From IMG/VR virus record IMGVR_UViG_3300037882_001697, positions 1 to 37,569 of that record: a DNA stretch of 37,569 bases, one strand, 5' to 3'. This document shows, in pieces, positions 815 through 35,524 of the stretch. This DNA is from a virus. Position 1 is the stretch's first letter; each line of letters opens with the position of its first letter. Position numbers and translations under genes: made by a program. The notes beneath the pieces were generated by a model that was not told where the DNA came from, did not search any database, and worked only from the letters and a program-made list of their open reading frames with translations.

Positions 815-1690
815 TTATCCCTTTATTTTAACGATTGTTATATCACAGAACCACCAGACCGTGCTGGCGGCGGCTCCCGTAACGGTCAGCACCAGCGCGT
901 CGTTCGTATTGTCAGCGGTAAACGCTGCCGCCCAGCCTGCGGTGTCCTCAATGGGTGTTCCTGTCTGAACCGAGCCAACCAGTGCCGTGGTGCCTGCGTT
1001 ATTGTCGATACAGCCGAAAAACTCATAAGCCGCGCTCTCGTTATCGGCATCGGTGCGCCGCGCCACCAGATACGCTTTGAATAGATAGGTGCAGTCTGTC
1101 GGGATGGTCAGGCGTTTAGATGCGCCATCCGTAAATATCTCTTTTGGGGTTGCATCGGACGTGAATCCCTTGAAGCAGAGGTCGCTTTTCTGAATATCGC
1201 CAGCGGTGGTGATTTTGCCGATTGCCGTAGCGTGCTCACCGTGAAGTGATGCAACGGCCTCCTTGCCATATACCCAGCCATAAGTGGCATTGGTTTCGAC
1301 TGAATTATTGGAACCGCCTATGGCAACGCCATAAGACCCAATAACAGTATTTCCGCCCTGCCCTTGTATGGTGATGCCACCTAATGAAATACTAAGTCGG
1401 CTATCTTCAAACGTATTAATCTCGATGTTGTCCGTGCTGGATACCAACACATCGCCGCTGGTGTATATTTCCACCCAATACGCACCACTTCCCCAGATGT
1501 CAGCATAGCCTTGAGCATCGAGAATCACAGGATTAGCGTTTGGCGTGCTTAAATCATAGGTTGCGTAGGTATCTTTCGGCGTGCTATCGTCCCCCGCCTC
1601 CCAGAAATACACCTTGCCACCAGCCAGCGGGTCGCCGTTGCTGTCAAAGGCGCGAAAGCGCGGATAAGGCATTAATACGTTGTCAGCCAT
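815..1690 (-). CDS. Tail fibre/spike-like protein
   Basis: The product has 291 residues and at least three regions. Residues 1-80 contain the common phage fibre head: YPRFRAFDSNGDPLAGGKVYF, then a DLSTPNANPVILDAQGYADIW stretch and GAYWVEIY. This module attaches many fibres to the virion. Residues about 105-155 (NTVIGSYGVAIGGSNN, ATAIG) resemble the short Gly/Ser turns of YadA-type trimeric beta-roll heads. Residues about 165-291 form a distal beta domain ending in TVWWFCDITIVKIKG, a type seen at the tips of phage fibres. The protein is probably trimeric and probably binds the host surface. It sits between two other distal-tail genes. Confidence 0.75.
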   Translation of the reverse strand: MADNVLMPYPRFRAFDSNGDPLAGGKVYFWEAGDDSTPKDTYATYDLSTPNANPVILDAQGYADIWGSGAYWVEIYTSGDVLVSSTDNIEINTFEDSRLSISLGGITIQGQGGNTVIGSYGVAIGGSNNSVETNATYGWVYGKEAVASLHGEHATAIGKITTAGDIQKSDLCFKGFTSDATPKEIFTDGASKRLTIPTDCTYLFKAYLVARRTDADNESAAYEFFGCIDNNAGTTALVGSVQTGTPIEDTAGWAAAFTADNTNDALVLTVTGAAASTVWWFCDITIVKIKG

Positions 1691-1691
1691 G

Positions 1692-3209
1692 TTATTTCCT
1701 GATTGTTAGTTTTAGGGGTTTTTTCGGCGTGAAGGGGGTGAGCAGGGGTTTTTGAAGCGGTTTATTCAGCCCTTGCAGAATTTGCTTGTTGGTGGATTTC
1801 GCGGGGGCTTGTCCACCCACCGAGCGGCGCACATCATTGGCTTTGCCTTTTTGTATCGCCTCGGCTCCCTTGCGGGCGAGCGCTGAAAATCCAGCGGTTG
1901 CAGCGGCGGCGGGGAGCGCACCACTCGCCCCTACGATAATCGGATTGAGCCTGCTTCCCATGAGCCGCAATGCCTCGGTGACAATGCCGGTTTGCGATGC
2001 CCTTTTAATCAGCGCCTTTTGCTCTGGAGTATAACCGCGCATACGCTTTTCATTGTTGTACAGAGTCCGGAATCCGGTTTTAATGCCGGTTGCCGGTACG
2101 TCCATCATTTCGGCGCGTGTAATGATTTTTTCGAGGTCACGAAGCCGAGCCTGCTGTGACCATAGGGAGCGGGCTTCTTTGAGGGAGTCAAAACCAGCCT
2201 TGCCGCCGCCGACAGACGAAGCGGGGGCGTTTTCTATCATCTCGCGCAAATCCGTCTGCATATCAATAACGCGGCCAGCCTGCTTTTTGTTACCGCTGGA
2301 AAACAGGCCGTCGATCACATCGCCTAAATGCTCATCAAGCTCCTGAACCTCTGCAAGCGTCAACGGGCTATCGCGCAGATTTTCCATTTTCTGAGCTATT
2401 TTTGTAACCTCATTGTCACCGGCCACAATCTTTCCCGCCGAGGTTTGCGGGGTATAGGTTTTTATCTTATCAAGATACTGATTTGTAAATTGTGGCGTCA
2501 GGTTTCCGCCGTTCGTTTCGGCAGCTTTATAGGCAGCACTGGACGCTGCGGCCTTCTCTGCGGCCATCGGTATGGCGGGCTTTTTCCTTAGCGCGTCCCC
2601 AAGGCGATTAGCACCAAGACCGCCAGCGATAGCACCTGCGGCTTGTGCAGGAATCTCCCAATCCGTCCCTTCAGCCATCTTTCGCGCGCCCTCAGATACC
2701 ACTGCGGCACCTGCTGCTGTACGAGTAGGGAGTTTTGCCGCCATTCCTCCGCTGAGCATTGACGTGACGTTTGCGGCAGATTGTCCGGCGGGGGTTGTAG
2801 GTTCATATAATTTAGTTCCTATCGCGGTTTCGAGAATGTCAGTGGACGTGGGTATGGGGTTAGGCGTGTAGTGTGGCAGCTCTTCACCCGTTGCAGCCTC
2901 GTAAACCTTCCCGCCTGCCCAGCGGCCAGCGGTAGCGCCCAGATTTAGCAGGTTTGCACCCATGCCGAGTGGTGTAGCGGCCATTAAACCCTCTGGTGCG
3001 CCGCGCAGTATCGCGGATTTGCCTATATCAGCCATAGTTTCGTCTGGTGGCTCTATTTCGGGAGGCAGGATATTCTTAACGCCAGTATCGGCTTTCGGCG
3101 CTGCGTGCATGGATTTCACGCGCTCTAGCGCCTGTTCTTTGGTCGCGCCCTCCGGGGCGGTCACGCGGTATTTTTTGCCGTCTGGTGAGGTAATCAGGTA
3201 TTGCGGCAT
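1692..3209 (-). CDS. Putative internal virion / DNA-ejection protein
   Basis: The product is 505 residues. Residues 1-32 (YLITSPDGKKYRVTAPEGAT) are a small repeat-type motif often found at the N-terminus of phage injection and internal virion proteins. Residues about 60-110 contain a hydrophobic Gly/Ala segment, as does a region near 425-450 (IIVGASGALPAAAATAG); both could enter membranes. The middle is helical and charged. Its ATG overlaps the stop of the gene before it by one base (TAATG), so the two are probably translationally coupled. Its position next to the other ejection-type genes, between the P22 gp10-like gene and the fibres, supports an ejection role. There is no lytic-transglycosylase motif. 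Confidence 0.55.
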   Translation of the reverse strand: MPQYLITSPDGKKYRVTAPEGATKEQALERVKSMHAAPKADTGVKNILPPEIEPPDETMADIGKSAILRGAPEGLMAATPLGMGANLLNLGATAGRWAGGKVYEAATGEELPHYTPNPIPTSTDILETAIGTKLYEPTTPAGQSAANVTSMLSGGMAAKLPTRTAAGAAVVSEGARKMAEGTDWEIPAQAAGAIAGGLGANRLGDALRKKPAIPMAAEKAAASSAAYKAAETNGGNLTPQFTNQYLDKIKTYTPQTSAGKIVAGDNEVTKIAQKMENLRDSPLTLAEVQELDEHLGDVIDGLFSSGNKKQAGRVIDMQTDLREMIENAPASSVGGGKAGFDSLKEARSLWSQQARLRDLEKIITRAEMMDVPATGIKTGFRTLYNNEKRMRGYTPEQKALIKRASQTGIVTEALRLMGSRLNPIIVGASGALPAAAATAGFSALARKGAEAIQKGKANDVRRSVGGQAPAKSTNKQILQGLNKPLQKPLLTPFTPKKPLKLTIRK

Positions 3210-4246
3210 TACTGCACTTCCTCCACACCCCAGCCATCGCCTGCGGGAGCGCCAGGAACAGTATCGGGAGGCGTAACGCCTGCCTTGGCCTTGGCGCGAG
3301 TGATACCGTTATTGATTATAGTGCGGTACTCATCAGCGGCCTTCATGAACTCATCCTCACTCTGGGCACGGTTCATTCGTAAGATTGCCTGCGTTGCCTT
3401 CTGGCCTTCAACTTCAGTAATCGCGCCGCCACCCTTGAGAGATTTGAACGCCTCAAGGAAAGCGCCGCCTTGTAGCTGATCTATGAGCGTTTTGAAGTTC
3501 GCCGCATCCGAGCCGCCAACGGGGTCTATAGCGCCAAACAGGGATGAAAACCCCTTTGCGCCAACCGCGCTTTGGAATCCAGCGTGGGGAGGCTTAATTA
3601 CTTTATCGCCATCTTTTACGCCTACCATCTGGTCGATAATTTGTAGAGAATTTTCAGCCGTGGCGAGTGCATCCGGCAGGCTCATTGCAGCATTTGCACC
3701 GGCCTCACCGGTGACTTTCGCACCAGCAGCCTGCTGTATCGCTTGAGGGGTTTTTTCAGGTGGCAAGGTTTTATCAATTACCGGCGTTGCTTGGCCAGTA
3801 AACGGATTAATCTGCACAATATTACCACCCGCATCCATAATTTTGGAGCTTTTGGCAAACTCATCAAAATTCTTTTTCTTTTCTGGGTCGGGGTCGCTCC
3901 CAAGCAATTCACTGAACTTATAATTCTGAATAGCCGATGTAGGTAACTGAGCTTTTGCATCATCGAATGCCGTCCGTGTCTGCTGTATCCACTCAGCATC
4001 GAACGCCACAGGAATCGTATCTTCACGGCCAAGACCTTCCGCGATAGCCTGCTGGCGAATACCCGCCCAATTCTCAGGAGTCGCCATGCCGAGATATTGC
4101 ACTGCGCGCTCAATTTTCGCGGTCTTTAATTTTTCATCATTGACCTGCATTTCCTGCTGGCTGGATGCAATCTGCTGCCCGCCGAGCTTTTCAGAAAGTC
4201 CTTGCGCGCGTGCCTGCGAATAGATGCCGGAATCAAGCTGAAACAT
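3209..4246 (-). CDS. Putative ejection/internal virion protein
   Basis: The product is 345 residues, largely helical and soluble. Residues about 225-320 carry FSSLFGAIDPVGG, then FLEAFKSLKGGGAITEVEGQ and ATQAILRMNRAQSEDEF. I recognise this block as recurring in phage proteins encoded with DNA-transfer proteins. It overlaps both neighbours by one base at each end, so it is made as part of a tightly coupled set. A role in the ejected protein complex is inferred from that linkage and not from any catalytic motif. Confidence 0.55.
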   Translation of the reverse strand: MFQLDSGIYSQARAQGLSEKLGGQQIASSQQEMQVNDEKLKTAKIERAVQYLGMATPENWAGIRQQAIAEGLGREDTIPVAFDAEWIQQTRTAFDDAKAQLPTSAIQNYKFSELLGSDPDPEKKKNFDEFAKSSKIMDAGGNIVQINPFTGQATPVIDKTLPPEKTPQAIQQAAGAKVTGEAGANAAMSLPDALATAENSLQIIDQMVGVKDGDKVIKPPHAGFQSAVGAKGFSSLFGAIDPVGGSDAANFKTLIDQLQGGAFLEAFKSLKGGGAITEVEGQKATQAILRMNRAQSEDEFMKAADEYRTIINNGITRAKAKAGVTPPDTVPGAPAGDGWGVEEVQ

Positions 4247-5484
4247 TAGTAATATCCTCCTGCTGGGTTCACATTACCCTTTTTCTGCCAAGGTAGCGTT
4301 GTGCTTCCGCCGTATGTGCTCTGGCCTATCGTGTTCGTGAGGCCGCCGAGCATGGAGCTGAAATTCAGCCCGTTATTCAGCGATGCCGCGCCGGTCACAT
4401 TGGCGCTCTGGCCAAGGATATTGCCTTGCGCGTTCGCATTATTCTGATTCGCATTAACCGCCGTATTGGTGGAATTGGTGCCGGTATTTATCAGTCCACC
4501 GAGGCGACTATAAAGCGTGTCGCCATCGGATTTGAATTTGTTAAATCCTATGCTGTAATCATTGTTATAACGGTCATACGCGCGGCCATATTCATCAGTG
4601 GCGAGATTCTGGCCGAAATCTGTCGCCTCTTTCAATGCTCTGCCAGAGAAGAAATTACCCCTTGCGGCCTGTGCGTTATTTATCGCCTTATTTCCCTCGG
4701 CTAGCCTGAACTCATAGCCGGGGTCTGCGATCATGTCGGTGAGTGCGAACGGCTTGGGGTCTTTGTAGGTTTTTGTAAGCTGCCCATAGGAAGGGTCTGC
4801 TTTCTGGCGGGCGATTTCCGCATCAATGGCGGCTTCAATATCCTGCCCCTGCCCTGCATTGGCGGCGGCAATGGCCTGCTGATACATATCCTGCGCGCCA
4901 GCCTCTTTAACGCGGCTATCTAGTAATCCGCCCGTGGCGATTTCATTCGCGCCTAAAAACCCGTAAGCCCTACCCCATTGCGTCGCGTAATCCTGATTCC
5001 ATGCTGCCGGAACACCACTTGTCGCAGGCGCTCCCGTGGCCGCACCTGCTGGCTGTCCTGCGGGTGCGGGTGGAGGCGGGGCTATAATGCCGCTCAGTTT
5101 TGTGCCTTCACTTGCCATATACGCCTCGCCAGGTGCAGTCAGTGACTGCGGCGTAGCGCCGGACAGTATCTGTTCACCCGTTATCGCCGCCGGTGCCTGC
5201 GCGGGCGCGGTCATGCCGGGTGGCAGTGTTTTAACGATATTGAACGTCTGCGACGGCATTTTATACTCAGGCACTTGCGCCTGTACTGCCTGCGCGATTT
5301 TAGGAATATCCCACCTGTCCCAATCAGCACCTTGATCGTTATATCCAAGTGATTTTATCACCTGAGAAATCTTGCGCTGTACATCGGGCGAATTTTCTGT
5401 ATCGCCATACACCGCCAGTATAGACTTCATCAGGCCGGTGTTCTGTGGCCTGCCGTTCTTATCGTAGTAGTTTATGTCAACCAC
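4246..5484 (-). CDS. Putative DNA-transfer (ejection) protein
   Basis: The product is 412 residues. Residues about 130-160 are Pro/Ala-rich (IIAPPPPAPAGQPAG) and probably a linker. Residues about 250-345 contain DPGYEFRLAEGNKAINNAQA followed by ARGNFFSGRALKEATDFGQN and DEYGRAYDRYNNDY. That pattern (Gly-tyr-phe-arg, ARG, SG, LK..DFGQ, EYxxAxxRYxxD) is characteristic of phage proteins ejected with DNA. The C-terminus is Asn/Gly-rich. The gene lies immediately downstream of a smaller protein with the same family character (5488-6039). Confidence 0.6.
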   Translation of the reverse strand: MVDINYYDKNGRPQNTGLMKSILAVYGDTENSPDVQRKISQVIKSLGYNDQGADWDRWDIPKIAQAVQAQVPEYKMPSQTFNIVKTLPPGMTAPAQAPAAITGEQILSGATPQSLTAPGEAYMASEGTKLSGIIAPPPPAPAGQPAGAATGAPATSGVPAAWNQDYATQWGRAYGFLGANEIATGGLLDSRVKEAGAQDMYQQAIAAANAGQGQDIEAAIDAEIARQKADPSYGQLTKTYKDPKPFALTDMIADPGYEFRLAEGNKAINNAQAARGNFFSGRALKEATDFGQNLATDEYGRAYDRYNNDYSIGFNKFKSDGDTLYSRLGGLINTGTNSTNTAVNANQNNANAQGNILGQSANVTGAASLNNGLNFSSMLGGLTNTIGQSTYGGSTTLPWQKKGNVNPAGGYY

Positions 5485-27555: not shown

Positions 27556-28164
27556 TTAAGTCATCCTCTCAGCCCTCATATGACAAGACTGGCAAAGCCC
27601 TATCAGGTTTTCCCGATTGTTGGCAGCGGCATGGCTATCAAAGTGACGAAATGGTGTAATGTGATGGACTGGAAGCGACTTTCCGACATGTTTTCTGCAA
27701 TGTCCGCAACAACCATCCTGTTCGCCAACAACTTGTTCCCGCGCCTCAAGCCACCCTTTCCCGCGATAGGTGGTTATACCCCCAACGTAACAAGGGGATT
27801 TTTCAGACACAAACACACCGGAATGTTCAAAGCACCTCCGAGAACAGAATTTAGCCAGCCCATTTTGGCGAATGAGCCACGGCTTTTGTGTGAACGACCC
27901 CTTGCAATGCTGGCATGTTCGCTCAACACCATTCTTCCAATTATGGCTTTTGTCACCAGTAAGCCCTTTAGGGAAGGCATTAGCCGGACGCTTCCCTGCG
28001 CGGAATCTATTGCCGATAAGGTGAGGCTTGTCCCCTACGTTGAGAAATTTTCTAGCCAGAAATCGCCCCTTGCACTCAGAAGAGCAAAAGCGGGATTTTT
28101 GGGCGCGGTATGGCTTGACCTTGTAGGTCGCGTTACATTCTTGGCAAATGAGATTTATCAACAT
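27556..28164 (-). CDS. HNH homing endonuclease
   Basis: The product is 202 residues and reads against the methyltransferase remnants. It has two zinc fingers in the N-terminal half (Cys7, Cys10, Cys27, Cys31 and Cys84, Cys87, Cys107, Cys111). The C-terminal HNH domain has a CGHC knuckle (153-155), LPVHHITPFRHFDSH (His167, His168), NNRENLIGLC and a CQSCH closing motif (191-195). Proteins of this kind cut a target gene and copy themselves into it. There is no Shine-Dalgarno; a promoter ends six bases before the ATG, suggesting a leaderless mRNA. The first finger resembles that of the intein-borne nuclease at 29930-30517. Confidence 0.85.
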   Translation of the reverse strand: MLINLICQECNATYKVKPYRAQKSRFCSSECKGRFLARKFLNVGDKPHLIGNRFRAGKRPANAFPKGLTGDKSHNWKNGVERTCQHCKGSFTQKPWLIRQNGLAKFCSRRCFEHSGVFVSEKSPCYVGGITTYRGKGWLEAREQVVGEQDGCCGHCRKHVGKSLPVHHITPFRHFDSHAAANNRENLIGLCQSCHMRAERMT

Positions 28165-28360: not shown

Positions 28361-28744
28361 TTATACTATCAGCCCCTGCGCCTCATCCTCAGACCTGACA
28401 ACACCAGCGATGCCGCCAGAGCGGCGCACCTGAGTAATAAAATTTTCTTGATCGGCATTCGCACGTCCCGTGGCGGTTTTTACTTCCAGGGCAGTGAAAA
28501 CAGCTATTTGCCGCCCCACGTCCGCCTGAGTCACCGTGTAGGGATGCCAGCCGATGAGGTCAGACGAGCCGGGACATAACCCCATGCGTATCTTACGCGG
28601 GTTTATCAGCGTAAGGTCACCGTTCGCGTGGTGCCGTTCTATGCCCTGCCACGCCCACCCGGTGTTCTGCCGAAATAGGCGCGTGCCGAGCTTACTGAGG
28701 TGCTTCATGATGCGGTTTGATATATTCGTTTCAGCGATTGCCAT
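28361..28744 (-). CDS. VRR-NUC nuclease
   Basis: The product is 127 residues of the PD-(D/E)xK superfamily. LCPGSSDLIGWHP supplies the catalytic Asp, and FTALEVKTATGRANADQENF supplies the ExK motif and conserved Gln. The final VRRSGGIAGVVRSEDEA is the VRR signature. Such nucleases act on branched or flap DNA and are often paired with a helicase in phages. Its start lies one base after the helicase stop, consistent with a helicase-nuclease pair. The last 38 bases overlap the convergent methyltransferase remnant. Confidence 0.88.
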   Translation of the reverse strand: MAIAETNISNRIMKHLSKLGTRLFRQNTGWAWQGIERHHANGDLTLINPRKIRMGLCPGSSDLIGWHPYTVTQADVGRQIAVFTALEVKTATGRANADQENFITQVRRSGGIAGVVRSEDEAQGLIV

Positions 28745-28745
28745 T

Positions 28746-31157
28746 TTATTTCCTCGGTGTATTAACCGCCTTCGTTAAAAATGCGTCAAAACTGAGGGGC
28801 TTCGCGTAAACCCCTGACCGTGACACCTGAGCGGCGCGCATAGTAAACTGTTTCGCAGCCCATTGCTCTGCCTTACCTGGCGGCATACCGGATTTATATG
28901 CCTTCTCTATCAATTCTTCCAGCGGCAACTCTAATTGTACGGTGTGGCGCGTGGGGTTTTCAGCCCTCATTTTATCAACGGCTTCCCGCGTCATTTCCTT
29001 TAGGGAGCCGTCCACCTCGTCCAGTATGCGCGATTTCACCTCATAAACGTGATGACACTCAGGACATTCCTTGATGTGTGGCGCGTGGCAGGAAAAGCAC
29101 ATCGGGCAGCGGCGCATAGCTTCCAGCGTTTCTTCTTCGCCACGCTTCTTTTTAATCCTGCCTTTCAGTGACCACTCACGCGGCGAGTCTGGCAGGCCGT
29201 GGCGCATGATGTTTCCAGCGTGATCGAGAAAGATTGCTGGCTCAGATTTCGGCCTCAATCCCCTGCCGAGCTGTTGCAGGTGCAGGCTCAGACTCAGTGT
29301 AGGCCGTCCCTGAATCACGCACTCAATCGGCACATCACGCCCTGCGATGGCCGAGAGGTCAAAGCCCTCACCGAATAGATCGACGTTGAATATAACCGGC
29401 GTCACACCGCTGGCAAAATCCATGATATGCGCCCTGCGCTGTTCTGGCGGGGTGTTTGCGTCAACGTGCGCCGCTGGTATGCCGTTTACGTTAAATTCAT
29501 CCACCAGCGCCTTGCTGTGTTTGATAGAGGCGGCAAAGCCTATGGTGCGTTTTCCGAGCGCCTTTTGTTTCCACTGCCCCACGAAATCGGAAATGATAGC
29601 CCGGCGCATCATGACTTCTTCGACTTCATCCTGCACGAAATCGCCTGACCGCTCGTGAATTTCTGACATATCAGGGTTTGCCGGGCAGAATGCGCGGTAT
29701 TTACTCAGAAAACCGTGTTCAATGAGCCATTCGACATCCACGCCCTGCACCATGTGATCGAAAAAGTCAGATAATCCCTCACCTGATAATCTCCACGGGG
29801 TAGCGGTCAGTCCGACAATGCGGGTGCCGCCTGCCCGCGCCCACTTCACGATTTTAGCCCAGCCCGCCGCACTGGTGTGATGGCAATTGTGTACCAGTAC
29901 ACCGTTTGCGAAGTAGTTATGATTTTTTTCTACTTCGACATTGTAGACAAAACCGTCTGGACACAAGCCTCCAAATTTTCCGTCACCTGTTTGTTTGTGA
30001 ACCTCAACACTTTCCACCCAACATTGTTTAAAAATATTTCCTTGCGCCTGTCCTGTTTCTGTCTTTCCAGTGAACAGTGAGAAAAGCCATCCACTTCTAT
30101 TGCCATTTTTAAATGATGGTTCGCTATATCCAGCTTGTAATGAGTTGGCCGATAGCCGCCACCGGTTGTTAAAATATATTCCATCGGCCAGCCAAGCGCA
30201 GATGCCAATAACTGCTGTGCGACACTTGGCGGCTTTCCGTTTCCACCGCGAACCGTCGGCTTCCATTGCATTGTGCGTAGCGTCGTTGAAACCTTTGCTC
30301 GTACATCCTCGCGCTTCATTGGATTGTTTTTCTTCATGCGCGCGCTGGCATGGGTTTTGTTGGTTTTTGCCATTGTTTCCGACGATAAGCGCCGACAGAA
30401 TGTTTTTGAACATTCCCTTGAGCAGAACACACCCAGACCGGCTTTCAGTCTGTCCCGATGGTATTTTGTTACTATCGGAGTATCCCTTGCACACTCCTTG
30501 CAATTTGCTGCGTTCATTTATTCGCCTTTCTGTGATGCAATACACCATGCTTCCGCTATCAAGGCTTACCGCTGGAATATAGTTTTGTCCATTAAAAAAT
30601 GGGTGGTTTGGCGTACAGGTTATTTTTTTGCCATTTGAAAGTGTAATGGTTACAAGGTTTTTTGGGATATTTTTGTATAGGCGCATTATGCGTCTTTTTT
30701 CAACGCGCTGGCGGTCATGATTGTATGAGCTTACATAATCTCCGATACGGAGAGTTTCTATCGGCGTGCCATCAATAAGTGTACCTGCCGGGAAGCATTC
30801 GTCAACTATCAATAACTTAGGCGGTTTTATTTTTTCCAGCCGGTTGCCGAGCGTTCCCACGGTGGCAATACGCACGCGCATACGGGGGTTATAGTGATTT
30901 CCGGCTGCAATGAATGTATGCGGGATGCCTGATTTCTCGAATGTCTTGCTTGTCTGGGTGAGTAATTCCCGGCGATGCACCATGAATATAACTTCAAAGC
31001 CCTTGCTGTGCGATGTGCCAACCATGTAGGCAGCCATGACCGTTTTACCCGCGCCGGTTGGCGAGCGCATCAATACAGACTGATGCACGCGCAGCGCCTC
31101 ACGCATTTCGTTAATAAGGGTTTTCTGATCGTCACGTAATTTAAATTCACTACTCAC
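28746..31157 (-). CDS. SF2 DEAD/DEAH helicase, interrupted by an intein
   Basis: I place the start at the GTG at 31157, eight bases inside the upstream gene; a TTG at 31184 would add nine residues. Numbered from the TTG, motif I is SPTGAGKT (41-48), motif III LTATPWR (459-465) and motif VI QQLGRGLRP. Motif II (DECH) is split by an intein between Glu129 and the next codon. The spliced sequence is LLIVDECHHTSAAGW, restoring the ATPase motif. The mature helicase has about 500 residues and ends with a four-cysteine zinc finger (CPMC, CPEC). It resembles RadD-like phage helicases and probably works with the VRR-NUC nuclease in recombination or replication. Confidence 0.9.
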   Translation of the reverse strand: MSSEFKLRDDQKTLINEMREALRVHQSVLMRSPTGAGKTVMAAYMVGTSHSKGFEVIFMVHRRELLTQTSKTFEKSGIPHTFIAAGNHYNPRMRVRIATVGTLGNRLEKIKPPKLLIVDECFPAGTLIDGTPIETLRIGDYVSSYNHDRQRVEKRRIMRLYKNIPKNLVTITLSNGKKITCTPNHPFFNGQNYIPAVSLDSGSMVYCITERRINERSKLQGVCKGYSDSNKIPSGQTESRSGCVLLKGMFKNILSALIVGNNGKNQQNPCQRAHEEKQSNEARGCTSKGFNDATHNAMEADGSRWKRKAAKCRTAVIGICAWLADGIYFNNRWRLSANSLQAGYSEPSFKNGNRSGWLFSLFTGKTETGQAQGNIFKQCWVESVEVHKQTGDGKFGGLCPDGFVYNVEVEKNHNYFANGVLVHNCHHTSAAGWAKIVKWARAGGTRIVGLTATPWRLSGEGLSDFFDHMVQGVDVEWLIEHGFLSKYRAFCPANPDMSEIHERSGDFVQDEVEEVMMRRAIISDFVGQWKQKALGKRTIGFAASIKHSKALVDEFNVNGIPAAHVDANTPPEQRRAHIMDFASGVTPVIFNVDLFGEGFDLSAIAGRDVPIECVIQGRPTLSLSLHLQQLGRGLRPKSEPAIFLDHAGNIMRHGLPDSPREWSLKGRIKKKRGEEETLEAMRRCPMCFSCHAPHIKECPECHHVYEVKSRILDEVDGSLKEMTREAVDKMRAENPTRHTVQLELPLEELIEKAYKSGMPPGKAEQWAAKQFTMRAAQVSRSGVYAKPLSFDAFLTKAVNTPRK
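29886..30797 (-). mobile_element. Intein in the helicase DECH box
   Basis: This 304-residue in-frame insert starts with Cys (CFPAGTLIDGTPIETLRIGD, block A), has block B TCTPNHPFF with the TxxH motif, and ends with VYNVEVEKNHNYFANGVLVH then Asn (blocks F and G). The penultimate His and terminal Asn are present and the +1 residue is Cys, so all residues needed for splicing are there. In the splicing frame there is no LAGLIDADG or HNH motif. About 180 residues between B and F are linker-like and lie over a nuclease gene read in another frame. Confidence 0.92.
29930..30517 (-). CDS. Homing endonuclease nested out of frame in the intein
   Basis: The product is 195 residues, entirely inside the intein DNA on the same strand but in a different frame. 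The ATG at 30517 has an AGAAAGG Shine-Dalgarno seven bases upstream, so it can be translated on its own. Residues 6-36 form a CKEC...CSREC zinc finger. Residues 125-175 match the Vsr-like EDxHD nucleases: YKLDIANHHLKMAIEVDGFS with Asp130, Glu141, Asp143 and His147, then a DRRKEIFLNNVGWKVLRFTN strand-helix. Its last eight codons overlap the start of intein block F. It probably cuts intein-free helicase genes and so spreads the intein. Known relatives occur beside split inteins; here the intein is unsplit. Confidence 0.85.
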   Translation of the reverse strand: MNAANCKECARDTPIVTKYHRDRLKAGLGVFCSRECSKTFCRRLSSETMAKTNKTHASARMKKNNPMKREDVRAKVSTTLRTMQWKPTVRGGNGKPPSVAQQLLASALGWPMEYILTTGGGYRPTHYKLDIANHHLKMAIEVDGFSHCSLERQKQDRRKEIFLNNVGWKVLRFTNKQVTENLEACVQTVLSTMSK

Positions 31158-31299
31158 GATGCGCCCCGCAATACCACAGGCCAAGGCGGGTTTTCGCCTG
31201 CGTTTTATCCCCTGCCGCCAGCGATGCCAGTGCGCCGCTGAAATTAACTTCCTTGCCGAAATAGGCGGCCTCTCCGCACGTTTCGCATATATGCAGCAT
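31150..31299 (-). CDS. Small Cys-rich protein
   Basis: The frame is open from 31431, but that part lies inside the repressor gene. I use the ATG at 31299, 28 bases after the repressor stop, giving 49 residues. It reads MLHICETCGEAAYFGKEVNF and ends GLWYCGAHRE. CETC plus the CGAH tail make a plausible four-ligand zinc site. The Shine-Dalgarno is poor. It overlaps the helicase GTG by eight bases, suggesting coupled translation. Confidence 0.5.
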   Translation of the reverse strand: MLHICETCGEAAYFGKEVNFSGALASLAAGDKTQAKTRLGLWYCGAHRE

Positions 31300-31327
31300 T
31301 ACGAGGGTGCCGGATTTCGATATACGT

Positions 31328-31528
31328 TTAAGGCTTGCTGGCACTAAATAAGACCTTCCCGCGTGACATTTTGCGTATAATTTCCCCCACGTCAGCACCA
31401 GGCATACCGCCGTTTTCCCACGATGCAACATTGCTCTGCGTCACCAGCCTATCAAGCTTTTTACTAAGCGAGTTCGCCAGATGCGCCTGTGACCATCCCT
31501 TTGATTTTCGCCATTCTGCCAACATCAT
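31328..31528 (-). CDS. XRE/Cro-type repressor
   Basis: The product is 66 residues, starting MMLAEWRKSKGWSQAHLANS. The helix-turn-helix is WSQAHLANSL, with recognition helix near VTQSNVASWENGG. The ATG at 31528 has AGAGG eight bases upstream. It is first in the leftward operon and divergent from the exonuclease-recT operon. It probably controls both by binding the two related palindromes in the intergenic region. There is no ligand or cleavage domain. Confidence 0.8.
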   Translation of the reverse strand: MMLAEWRKSKGWSQAHLANSLSKKLDRLVTQSNVASWENGGMPGADVGEIIRKMSRGKVLFSASKP

Positions 31529-33561: not shown

Positions 33562-34392
33562 ATGTCTCTTAAGCAAATGCGCCTCGCCCTAAGTATATCT
33601 GGCGTTCCTCTGGAAGGAAATAAGCTAGTGCGTATAGTGTATATGGATGAATCCGGCACGGGGAAAGAGGACACACATTTAGTTGTTTGCGGTGCCATAG
33701 TTCATGGCGATACCTTATTCGGCCCCGTTGAAGATTATCTTCAGTCTTTGATTGATAAGCATATTCCCGCCGATAAAAAGGAAGGCTTCTACTTTCACGC
33801 ATCAGAAATTTATAGCGGTAGCAGAAAAGGAAAAAGCGCCAGTATTTTTGCTGATAGGCAAGAATGGCCCGCTGAAAGGCGATGGGCCATATTGGATGAT
33901 ATGGTGGCAATACCAAAAGACTTTAATATACCTATTTGTGTTGCGTGGATTGAAAAATCAGAATTTCTAACAAAGATTAAAAATGCGCCTCCCGAAAAAA
34001 AATTAGACGTTGAAGGTTCAAAAGCAGTCCACGCTTGTGGAATTGCTGTTTGCGAACTTATAGTTGAAAAATGGATGAGAGAGAACACAACAGACGAATT
34101 TGCAATGATAACTATGGAAAACAATGATGAGGTAAGACAGTTAGCAAAGAGTACGCATCTATATTTAAAAAATATAGAAGATTTATCGGACTATGGTGAG
34201 ATTAGCGCCAAAATTCTCCCGTTCGTTAAGATACGAGATGGTCTACAGTTTGCAAATAAATCGGAATCAAGATTCCTGCAAATCGCTGATGTTTGTGCAT
34301 GGGCTTGTCGCCGCGCTTTGAATCACGCCGAAAACGCAGACCGCTTTATAACTCCTCTTCTCCCGCAGATTTTTGAGGGGAAGGAGGCTTAG
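33562..34392 (+). CDS. DUF3800 passenger protein in IS
   Basis: The product is 276 residues with GGGAG seven bases ahead of the ATG. DUF3800 features are visible: VRIVYMDESGTGKEDTHLVV near the N-terminus with the conserved Asp-Glu-Ser/Gly, FYFHASEIYSGSRKGKSASI, and SRFLQIADVCAWACRRALNH near the end (conserved Asp). The family is thought to have an RNase H-like, possibly nuclease fold; no function is established. It is the only plus-strand gene of the element and lies just inside the left end. It overlaps the convergent 65-residue gene by 47 bases. Confidence 0.88.
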   Translation: MSLKQMRLALSISGVPLEGNKLVRIVYMDESGTGKEDTHLVVCGAIVHGDTLFGPVEDYLQSLIDKHIPADKKEGFYFHASEIYSGSRKGKSASIFADRQEWPAERRWAILDDMVAIPKDFNIPICVAWIEKSEFLTKIKNAPPEKKLDVEGSKAVHACGIAVCELIVEKWMRENTTDEFAMITMENNDEVRQLAKSTHLYLKNIEDLSDYGEISAKILPFVKIRDGLQFANKSESRFLQIADVCAWACRRALNHAENADRFITPLLPQIFEGKEA

Positions 34393-34543
34393 ATGCGGGC
34401 GGCACAATTCTCTCAAAGGCGCGTTCAAATAGCTTATCTGCCTCGGTGGGGTTTAGTTCGCCAGCGTCGGTTAGTTCGCGCACAGTATTGCGGAACTTCT
34501 TCGACTGCTCCCTCTGGGTCAATTCGTCCTTTTTCTTCGGCAT
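34346..34543 (-). CDS. 65-residue IS accessory protein, unknown
   Basis: The gene follows the transposase stop by five bases and is in the same operon. The product reads MPKKKDELTQREQSKKFRNT and VRELTDAGELNPTEADKLFE, a charged helical protein with a Pro/Ser-rich tail. It may be an accessory factor of transposition or of the passenger. Its 3' end overlaps the end of the DUF3800 gene on the other strand. Confidence 0.65.
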   Translation of the reverse strand: MPKKKDELTQREQSKKFRNTVRELTDAGELNPTEADKLFERAFERIVPPASKPPSPQKSAGEEEL

Positions 34544-34548
34544 CGCGC

Positions 34549-35484
34549 TTAGGCTCCAATACCAGTTGTTTGATAGGTCAGGCGCTTACCAACTACGCCT
34601 TTCAACAGCGCGTCAGCACGGGTAGCATCGTTAAATCCGGTTGCTTCACGGTTGTTATAACGGAAATCGAACTCCGCAACATAGCGATGCAGATGCTTCT
34701 TATCACAATGCTGATACACGCCTTTCATGCCGCGTTTGAAGATAGAAAAGCTACCTTCAATGGTATTGGTGTGAATGTTGCCCCGTCCGTATTCGCCAGT
34801 GCCATGAGCAACGAAATCATGCTTATCAAACGAGCGGTCAAGATTCTTGTATTGCCCGGCTTCATCAGTCATCACATGGGCTTCACGCGAAATGTTAGCT
34901 TCGAGAATAGGGGTGATGTCAGCGGCTTTCAGGCTATCAACAACCATGCTGCGCTTGCGTCCAGTGCTGCGGTCAACGAGAGACAGAACTTTATGCTTGT
35001 GAGCATAGCCGCGGCCTTTCTTGCTGCCTTCTGGCTTTACAGTGCGGTCATTGCCAATAAAGGTTTCATCAACCTCAACAACGCCACCACCTTGACCGAA
35101 AGGCGAAAGGTCGCCAGAGCGCATTGCTTCGCGGATACGGTGGGACATAAACCACGCAGTTTTAAGGGTAACGCCAAGAGTGCGGTGAAGCTGATTGCTG
35201 GAAATACCTTTTTTGCTTCCTGCGATAAGATAGATAGCTTGCAGCCATATGTGCATAGGAACATGGCTTCCCTCAAAGATAGTGCCGATTTTTACAGTAA
35301 ACGGCTTGCGGCACTGATAGCACTTGTAAGCGCCTATGCGGGTCGATTTACCGCCCATCTTGCCGATGCGTTCAACACCGCCGCAATGAGGGCAAACACA
35401 ACCATCAGGCCACACACGGGCTTCGATGAAAGCATAAGCAGATTCTTCGTTATGAAAATGTGGGGCAGAAAGGGTGGAAGTCAT
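34549..35484 (-). CDS. IS1595-family (ISXO2-like) transposase
   Basis: The product is 311 residues. An N-terminal zinc ribbon (CPHCGG ... CYQCRK) is followed by a helix-turn-helix region (GISSNQLHRTLGVTLKTAWF). The DDE-type catalytic core contains GVVEVDETFIGND, HVMTDEAGQYKN and HTNTIEGSFSIFKRG, the last giving the Asn/Glu of this family. It cuts and pastes the element ends. AGGAG lies eight bases ahead of the ATG. A possible promoter uses TTGACG inside the right inverted repeat with CATATT 17 bases later. Confidence 0.95.
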   Translation of the reverse strand: MTSTLSAPHFHNEESAYAFIEARVWPDGCVCPHCGGVERIGKMGGKSTRIGAYKCYQCRKPFTVKIGTIFEGSHVPMHIWLQAIYLIAGSKKGISSNQLHRTLGVTLKTAWFMSHRIREAMRSGDLSPFGQGGGVVEVDETFIGNDRTVKPEGSKKGRGYAHKHKVLSLVDRSTGRKRSMVVDSLKAADITPILEANISREAHVMTDEAGQYKNLDRSFDKHDFVAHGTGEYGRGNIHTNTIEGSFSIFKRGMKGVYQHCDKKHLHRYVAEFDFRYNNREATGFNDATRADALLKGVVGKRLTYQTTGIGA

Positions 35485-35524
35485 GTTTTATTCTCCTAAT
35501 GAAGAGAATATGCCAGTTTTGTCT

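Follow-up and report, generated by a model that had tools for sequence, protein, structure and literature searches.

Canonical inteins carry a homing domain, for example of the LAGLIDADG family, in frame between splicing blocks B and F. In fractured genes, which Dassa and colleagues are said to have described in 2009, a homing nuclease of a new family reportedly lies between the halves of a split intein, in phage replication genes. The EDxHD nuclease I-Bth0305I (PDB 3r3p) is carried by a group I intron. Two reports describe an out-of-frame HNH endonuclease in a phage methylase gene, in the case of ShiLan without an intein (PMC11855218; the second case is PMC12613952). Here we analyzed IMG/VR virus record IMGVR_UViG_3300037882_001697 over its positions 1 to 37,569 (the window), in which the helicase gene of a phage contains an unsplit intein, and a reading frame for an EDxHD/Vsr-like nuclease lies inside the intein DNA in another frame. 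We consider it probable, at roughly 0.87, that this element is a mobile intein and that its homing endonuclease has a gene of its own, concealed at +1 within the DNA that codes for the intein.

The locus has something in common with each of these systems. With canonical inteins it shares the insertion between blocks B and F and the presumed homing cycle, but its nuclease is a separate out-of-frame gene and not a domain of the intein; the nuclease was found in frame only in the group L282-L286, described below. Fractured genes reportedly pair the same kind of nuclease with an intein, and the loci L060, L062, L065 and L225 resemble them, whereas in the window host gene and intein form one open reading frame (ORF) with the nuclease inside in the other frame, and cis-splicing is expected. 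ShiLan likewise hides a homing-type nuclease out of frame in an insertion that is open in the host frame; that nuclease is, however, of the HNH type and comes with no splicing domain, whereas the window combines an EDxHD/Vsr-like nuclease, in which Pfam found no HNH family, with a full intein predicted to splice. I-Bth0305I shares the catalytic fold and the presumed homing role, but it is carried by an RNA intron and its motif aligns only in part. The intein and the nuclease family are already known, as, reportedly, are split inteins with such nucleases. The same holds for out-of-frame HNH insertions without inteins (PMC11855218). The literature searched contained no case of an unsplit intein that has a nuclease gene in another frame within it, and within this literature the combination appears to be new; a preprint on actinobacteriophage inteins of 'non-canonical architecture' (10.1101/2025.01.02.630785) might describe a similar arrangement.

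The intein and the nuclease gene within it

Counted from the first start listed for it, the host ORF has 812 codons without a stop and is read through the whole intein (Table 1). A GTG at 31157 overlaps the end of the upstream ORF and is perhaps for that reason the true start of the helicase, in which case the spliced product would have ∼499 amino acids. The helicase assignment rests on matches to Pfam ResIII (E=2.1e-18) and Helicase_C (E=1.1e-8), and to the DNA helicase family phrog_16 (E=4e-86). In the host frame Pfam Intein_splicing was matched with E=2.4e-12, and the sequence marks of an intein were observed: Cys1 (CFPAGT...), block B (CTPNHPF), the C-terminal YFANGVLVHN and then a +1 Cys (DE/CHH, the slash marking the insertion point). 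Residues C1, T62, H65, H303 and N304 were invariant in 20 of 20 aligned inteins, and the +1 Cys was present in all 20 and in the window.

Table 1. Coordinates of the features of the helicase-intein-nuclease locus in the window
Feature	Position	Strand	Remark or basis
Phage superfamily 2 (SF2; ResIII/RadD-like) DNA helicase, host gene	28746..31184	-	single continuous ORF, intein included
Intein, 304 aa	29886..30797	-	between DE and CHH of helicase motif II (Walker B)
N-terminal splicing domain, intein residues 1-93	30519..30797	-	single-frame coding
C-terminal splicing region (blocks F and G), residues 253-304	29886..30041	-	pLDDT, pN/pS
Shadow stretch, 157 intein residues (96-252)	30042..30512	-	nuclease DNA read in the other frame; free of stops, without conservation as intein protein
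Dual-coded stretch proper, nuclease C-terminus and intein block F region	29930..30041	-	substitution rates in relatives
Nuclease gene, 195 aa and stop	29930..30517	-	+1 relative to the host frame, ATG start, inside the intein
AGAAAGG, Shine-Dalgarno-like	30525-30531	-	5' of the nuclease ATG
TAA in the nuclease frame	30518-30520	-	codon directly before the ATG

In the AlphaFold model of the intein, the mean predicted local distance difference test score (pLDDT) per ten residues was 88-96 for residues 1-90 and 75-94 from residue 251 onward, most values of these splicing parts exceeding 90. When the ordered part was compared with solved structures, the best match was a BIL domain (Z 19.8 over 128 residues), and many inteins were found at Z 15-19.5. 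The shadow stretch, which occupies the place where canonical inteins carry their homing domain, had a pLDDT below 50 over residues 96-141, 144-156 and 158-252. These models suggest that one stretch of DNA would specify a folded enzyme when read in the nuclease frame and a loose loop when read in the intein frame.

The nuclease frame encodes a Cys4 zinc-finger-like N-terminus, an RMKKNNPM module and a Vsr/EDxHD-like catalytic domain (Y127, D130, E141, D143, H147 and D156). Pfam gave DUF559 (E=2e-12) and, under its curated cut-off, MTES_1575 (E=2.2e-8). The AlphaFold model had a mean pLDDT of 91. Foldseek alone gave no match at E <0.001, with I-Bth0305I ranked first; with VIA-align, the catalytic half was superimposed on 3hrl (Z 12.5, 83 residues, 1.2 Å), on I-Bth0305I (Z 10.8, 87 residues, 2.4 Å) and on Vsr (1cw0; Z 9.8, 96 residues, 2.3 Å). 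In an alignment of 32 nucleases, D143, H147 and D156 were invariant and E141 was present in at least 90%, and the window nuclease keeps every residue that is invariant in this alignment. On the modelled structure, the nuclease has a Vsr-like restriction fold. The earlier note, drawn from the letters alone, had called it an EDxHD (Vsr-like) enzyme; this holds at the level of the fold and less firmly residue by residue.

A separate start for the nuclease had also been proposed there, and the 195-residue ORF does begin with an ATG preceded by AGAAAGG. The TAA directly before this ATG means that sequence upstream cannot be fused to the nuclease. An ATG was present near the expected position in 76 of 82 loci, and 39 of these 76 (51%) showed a free energy of pairing with the anti-Shine-Dalgarno sequence (anti-SD dG) of -4 kcal/mol or below, a level reached by 21% and 27% of the two control sets, 1460 out-of-frame ATGs and 932 internal Met codons, respectively; six near-copies or remnants had been dropped before this comparison and before the first nuclease tree, and 13 before the second tree. 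In 80 of 80 loci the open nuclease frame starts downstream of Cys1 and is closed upstream within the intein, which excludes a frameshift fusion in the N-extein and makes one within the intein unlikely. At its other end, as the earlier note had it, the nuclease runs into block F: it shares 112 bases with the codons of intein residues 253-304. The distance from the nuclease stop to the intein HN was 11, 14, 26, 47, 53 or 68 bases in most one-ORF loci, as if only a few stop positions were compatible with blocks F and G.

Elsewhere in the window, an HNH endonuclease ORF (27556-28164, minus strand; phrog_8446, E=2.5e-15) lies near the helicase on the same strand. Two adjacent ORFs on the plus strand, 33562-34392 (276 aa) and 34393-35499 (368 aa), follow exonuclease VIII-like and RecT-like genes, and neither had a PHROG match at E 0.001. 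No group I or II intron was found by Rfam up to E=1 on positions 28700-31500.

Constraint on the two frames

The openness of the intein frame was compared with that in shuffled sequences, in which the nuclease protein was held fixed and its own codons were permuted among synonymous positions; identical nuclease DNA was removed before this and the pairwise tests below. In the window, the intein frame contains no stop where 8.5 were expected on average, and none of 400 shuffles was open. The same frame was open in all 85 unsplit or partly seen elements (median shuffle expectation, 9.6 stops), with P(open) <0.05 in 84 of them, the exception being L107, whose nuclease is shrunken. The unused third frame contained a median of 19 stops and was open in 0 of 85. 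Three distinct split loci, in which the host has no further need of the intein frame, had stops at the shuffled level (15 vs 17.9, 19 vs 19.0 and 29 vs 29.9). The earlier note had named a stop or frameshift in either frame of close relatives, or a nuclease frame free of purifying selection, as what would speak against it; the intein frame was open and the nuclease frame proved to be under purifying selection, with exceptions in a few unsplit elements whose nucleases are decayed (L107 and L138) and in split relatives, whose intein frame holds stops.

When relatives were compared in 15 pairs, 330, 232 and 736 differences fell on positions 1, 2 and 3 of the nuclease codons. Changes silent in the nuclease that alter the intein occurred at 0.398 per site, compared with 0.098 and 0.090 for changes that alter the nuclease, so that nuclease-changing substitutions are ∼4 times rarer than silent ones. 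The rate of nuclease-silent, intein-altering changes was lower over the last 36 nuclease codons, which overlap block F, at 0.194, than in the rest of the gene, at 0.442. In the intein frame, the ratio of nonsynonymous to synonymous differences (pN/pS; 14 pairs) was 0.33 for the N-terminal splicing part, 0.30 for blocks F and G and 1.64 for the shadow stretch; the C-terminal junction of L089 and L099 was placed automatically a few residues late, with a small effect on the values that the pair L099/L100 gives for block F and the C-extein. From the shuffle comparison, the substitution rates, the pN/pS values and the drop in the overlap we conclude that: i) the nuclease is selected as a protein, ii) the shadow stretch is selected for openness, and iii) the 3' overlap is selected for both.

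An enumeration of frames bears on the choice of frame. With the nuclease at +1, none of the 400 amino-acid pairs forces a stop in the host frame, because every stop of that kind depends on a T in the wobble position of a nuclease codon, where a synonymous alternative is always available. Five pairs (MI, MK, MM, MN and MT) force one at +2. At least one of the five is held by 87 of 88 EDxHD nucleases, in 77 of them within the conserved RM..NNPM stretch, and a +2 placement is therefore impossible without change to the protein.

Relatives, insertion site and mobility

A tblastn search with the nuclease gave 40 phage records (37 Vibrio, 2 Corynebacterium and 1 Pseudomonas). The annotation over the match was helicase in 14, P-loop NTPase in 1, 'coil containing protein' in 23 and hypothetical protein in 2; in the seven records inspected, one long coding sequence spanned the site each time and the nuclease was annotated in none. 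An alignment of eight nucleases was then used as seed (best 80 of 100 viral-contig loci, and 43 genome-contig loci), and loci were classed with hidden Markov models for the intein N part, the intein C part and the nuclease. In 96 of the 134 nuclease-seeded loci, a count that includes repeated contigs, a single host ORF enclosed the nuclease at +1; another 5 had two ORFs, 5 were partly covered and 28 lacked an intein. An intein-seeded scan added 41 new loci, and a scan seeded by the nucleases of split loci gave 68 loci. Altogether, 280 loci (many of them the same contig twice) fell into 148 clusters at 90% DNA identity, a count from which repeated contigs were removed: the nuclease was at +1 in 116 clusters with one ORF and in 5 with two ORFs, and it was in frame in 3 with one ORF, while 1 cluster was partly covered and 23 lacked an intein. 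None of these 148 clusters had the nuclease at +2. The unsplit intein with a separate out-of-frame nuclease gene, which the earlier note described from a single sequence, was thus seen in the window and in 116 clusters.

Matches to nearly the whole nuclease were found in L048 and L094 among the 28 loci without an intein, and the rest matched mainly the catalytic half. In L048 (3444-4428), a free full-length nuclease immediately precedes a helicase that has no intein and whose reading frame is interrupted exactly at DE/CHH; this arrangement could be the scar of an intein loss, an error or a free-standing homing gene. Partial matches were present in seven plasmid records, and in the one inspected (L138, Rhodovastum) the nuclease is nested and its catalytic motif is broken. 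The host gene of L085 (host ORF 998-4963), an SNF2 gene, has an in-frame LAGLIDADG_3 domain upstream, besides the hidden-frame intein, and in L004 (host ORF 1257-4892) the translation suggests an earlier intein-like insertion near the Walker A motif.

The insertion site was analyzed in the first set of loci. DE or EE preceded Cys1 by zero to three residues in 86 of 88 non-duplicate loci; of the remaining two, the translation of L104 reads DESHY/C, a junction missed by the script, and the junction of L024 lies off the contig. Inspected sites in this set are Walker-B motifs of P-loop ATPases: DE/C in ResIII and SNF2 genes, DEAH/C or DESH./C in some SNF2 genes and DE/CH in DnaX clamp loaders, where the ResIII and SNF2 labels are rough, having been propagated by BLAST, and DnaX was assigned by Pfam in the 3 of 10 scanned. 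The site is uninterrupted in the helicases of phages Mano (DECHH), Persinger and PBb001 (both DEAHH).

Several observations bear on mobility. Among 14 pairs of relatives chosen by nuclease similarity, the synonymous divergence of the intein N region was below that of both exteins in 13; the clearest case was L038/L045, whose third-position identity of 0.99 within the intein contrasts with 0.64 and 0.52 for the adjoining 25 codons on either side. When the rough host labels were placed on the nuclease tree, 13 changes of label were counted, and two between DnaX and helicase.

An empty and an occupied site were found side by side for an analogous element. The Xanthomonas phages FoX1 (L137, MT161381.1) and FoX3 (L136, MT161383.1) are 98.6% and 97.8% identical in the flanks; FoX3 has an intein at the same DE/CHH position, and the site is empty in FoX1. 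In the +2 frame, the FoX3 intein has a 266-codon open frame (first ATG at L136:789) for a LAGLIDADG_2 nuclease (PF03161, E=1e-21) that holds none of the five pairs forcing a stop at +2. By its sequence, this LAGLIDADG nuclease is unrelated to the EDxHD nuclease and is a second nuclease family hidden in an intein. For further elements of this kind, the viral-contig scan gave FoX3 only, and the phage scan gave FoX3 (two records) and two distant matches, one of which, L222, was inspected and is in frame in an RNA ligase intein of phage KLEP7.

Other layouts of the EDxHD family were also observed. In L282-L286 (three clusters; about 2000-4175), a zinc-finger/NPM/Vsr-like nuclease lies in frame in an intein with an HPNC/RC motif in another phage gene, which we take to be minor head protein-like. 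This group is only remotely related to the hidden-frame set (tree path >5), and the same nuclease may have been fused there independently. In L060, L062, L065 and L225, two ORFs that are mutually in phase each overlap one end of the nuclease. The intein of L277 (DnaX-like) is split by exactly one TAG (3689-3691) in the shadow stretch; since the TAG also terminates the nuclease ORF, it seems not to be recoded and to be a working stop. The C half of L277 has only an ATG without a Shine-Dalgarno sequence before block F, and its stop could be a sequencing error or an incipient fracture. L275 is split with a broken nuclease, and decayed nucleases were found in the unsplit L107 (a 95-codon remnant) and in L138 (catalytic motif lost).

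In the nuclease trees, split loci fell in one clade of three (support 100) or four members (99), with weak deep branches. When the tree was rooted on the distant in-frame group, the split clade lay among hidden loci, within a fork supported at 83; this no more than hints at the split layout arising from the hidden one. Such nucleases had been said in the earlier note to lie between split intein halves, and this layout is seen here in the split loci. The locus had further been proposed as a possible intermediate towards fractured genes, and this proposal is strengthened: in-frame, hidden, one-stop split, fully split and decayed states all exist and, judged from sequence, can be placed in an ordered series, although the trees leave its direction unfixed and unproven.

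Alternative explanations and significance

The nuclease might be a decaying relic, the intein a plain mini-intein and the open frames a leftover, as the decayed relatives L107, L138 and L275 could suggest; however, the window nuclease has kept all the residues invariant among the 32 nucleases, and substitutions altering it are the rarer class in the 15 pairs, which makes this unlikely. A ShiLan-like insertion, which would not splice and would stay in the helicase as a tolerated loop, would likewise combine an open host frame with an out-of-frame nuclease, and the shadow stretch here is predicted to be disordered too. Unlike in ShiLan, the five splicing residues and the following Cys are in place, the splicing parts are under purifying selection, and an insert retained within the Walker-B motif should spoil the ATPase, so that we regard such an insertion as quite improbable.

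Programmed frameshifting, yielding a nuclease fused to the helicase N-terminus and the intein N part and no free protein, would require a fixed offset, and the offset is indeed +1 in all 116 one-ORF clusters and +2 in none. Against it stand the closure of the nuclease frame upstream inside the intein in all 80 loci, with a TAA adjoining the ATG in the window, the excess of Shine-Dalgarno pairing at nuclease starts over controls and the retention of the nuclease as an ORF of its own in split relatives; we therefore hold it very unlikely, although no search aimed at slippery sites was made. Group I introns are known to carry EDxHD nucleases (PMC3943268), and a self-splicing intron with an intron ORF would account for a nuclease here; as Rfam gave no match up to E=1 on positions 28700-31500, and as a conserved Hint domain is encoded in a host frame that has no stop anywhere in the insertion, this explanation is barely conceivable.

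We therefore prefer the mobile intein with a separate nuclease gene hidden at +1, and several points weigh against it. The residue match to I-Bth0305I is partial, as only the E and the last D coincide in the alignment. The difference in anti-SD pairing between nuclease starts and the two controls (p=4e-9 and 1.5e-6) treats related loci as independent. Almost no such pairing (dG -1 or weaker) was seen at 20 of 76 starts, and 6 of 82 loci lack an ATG near the expected position; owing to these, nuclease translation is not accounted for in every locus. The intein-seeded scan, in which the nuclease was nested at +1 in 80 of 80 loci (best 80 of 199), was confirmed and ranked by the whole window intein including the shadow stretch, and is thus biased towards nuclease carriers. 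The pair L092/L093 showed the opposite trend in divergence, and choosing pairs by nuclease similarity favours low intein divergence. Finally, the uniform +1 offset may stem from common ancestry alone and not from a frame rule.

With the hidden nuclease gene as the preferred explanation, the following cycle can be proposed. The host frame would be translated straight through into a helicase-intein precursor, from which the Hint domain (residues 1-93 and 253-304), judged by its intact catalytic residues and fold, would excise itself and ligate the helicase. The ∼157 residues between the splicing parts would be a floppy loop that owes its existence solely to the nuclease gene at this place. From its own Shine-Dalgarno sequence and ATG, the nuclease would be translated by internal initiation as a free 22-kDa EDxHD/Vsr-like protein. 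This enzyme would cleave alleles that lack the intein, at the conserved Walker-B codons, and during repair the intein and the nuclease would be copied in together. This homing step is supported by the lower divergence of inteins than of host genes and, for the analogous element, by the FoX1/FoX3 pair. The host frame would be held open through the nuclease wobble positions, with selection removing every stop without change to the nuclease; if selection lapsed, stops would return, and a fractured gene with a split intein may result. A broader proposal is that hidden-frame nucleases are a general third coding state of inteins, at which two or more unrelated nuclease families have arrived (EDxHD at +1, LAGLIDADG at +2), with the frame set by synonymous stop-avoidance, and the usual gateway to natural split inteins; we hold this tentatively, at somewhat less than an even chance.

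The arrangement would provide a route for an intein to carry a separately translated nuclease while keeping its predicted cis-splicing, and a concrete path by which bifunctional inteins could give rise to fractured genes and to natural split inteins. Dual coding of ∼590 bases is common to more than 100 distinct elements in phages and bacteria, and natural controls are at hand in the split relatives freed of the constraint and in the empty/occupied pair of the analogous element. Such nucleases are easily overlooked in annotation, since none of the seven inspected phage records marks the nuclease as a gene. Inteins appear to tolerate ∼150 residues of arbitrary sequence, and this family may thus supply new split points and new split inteins.

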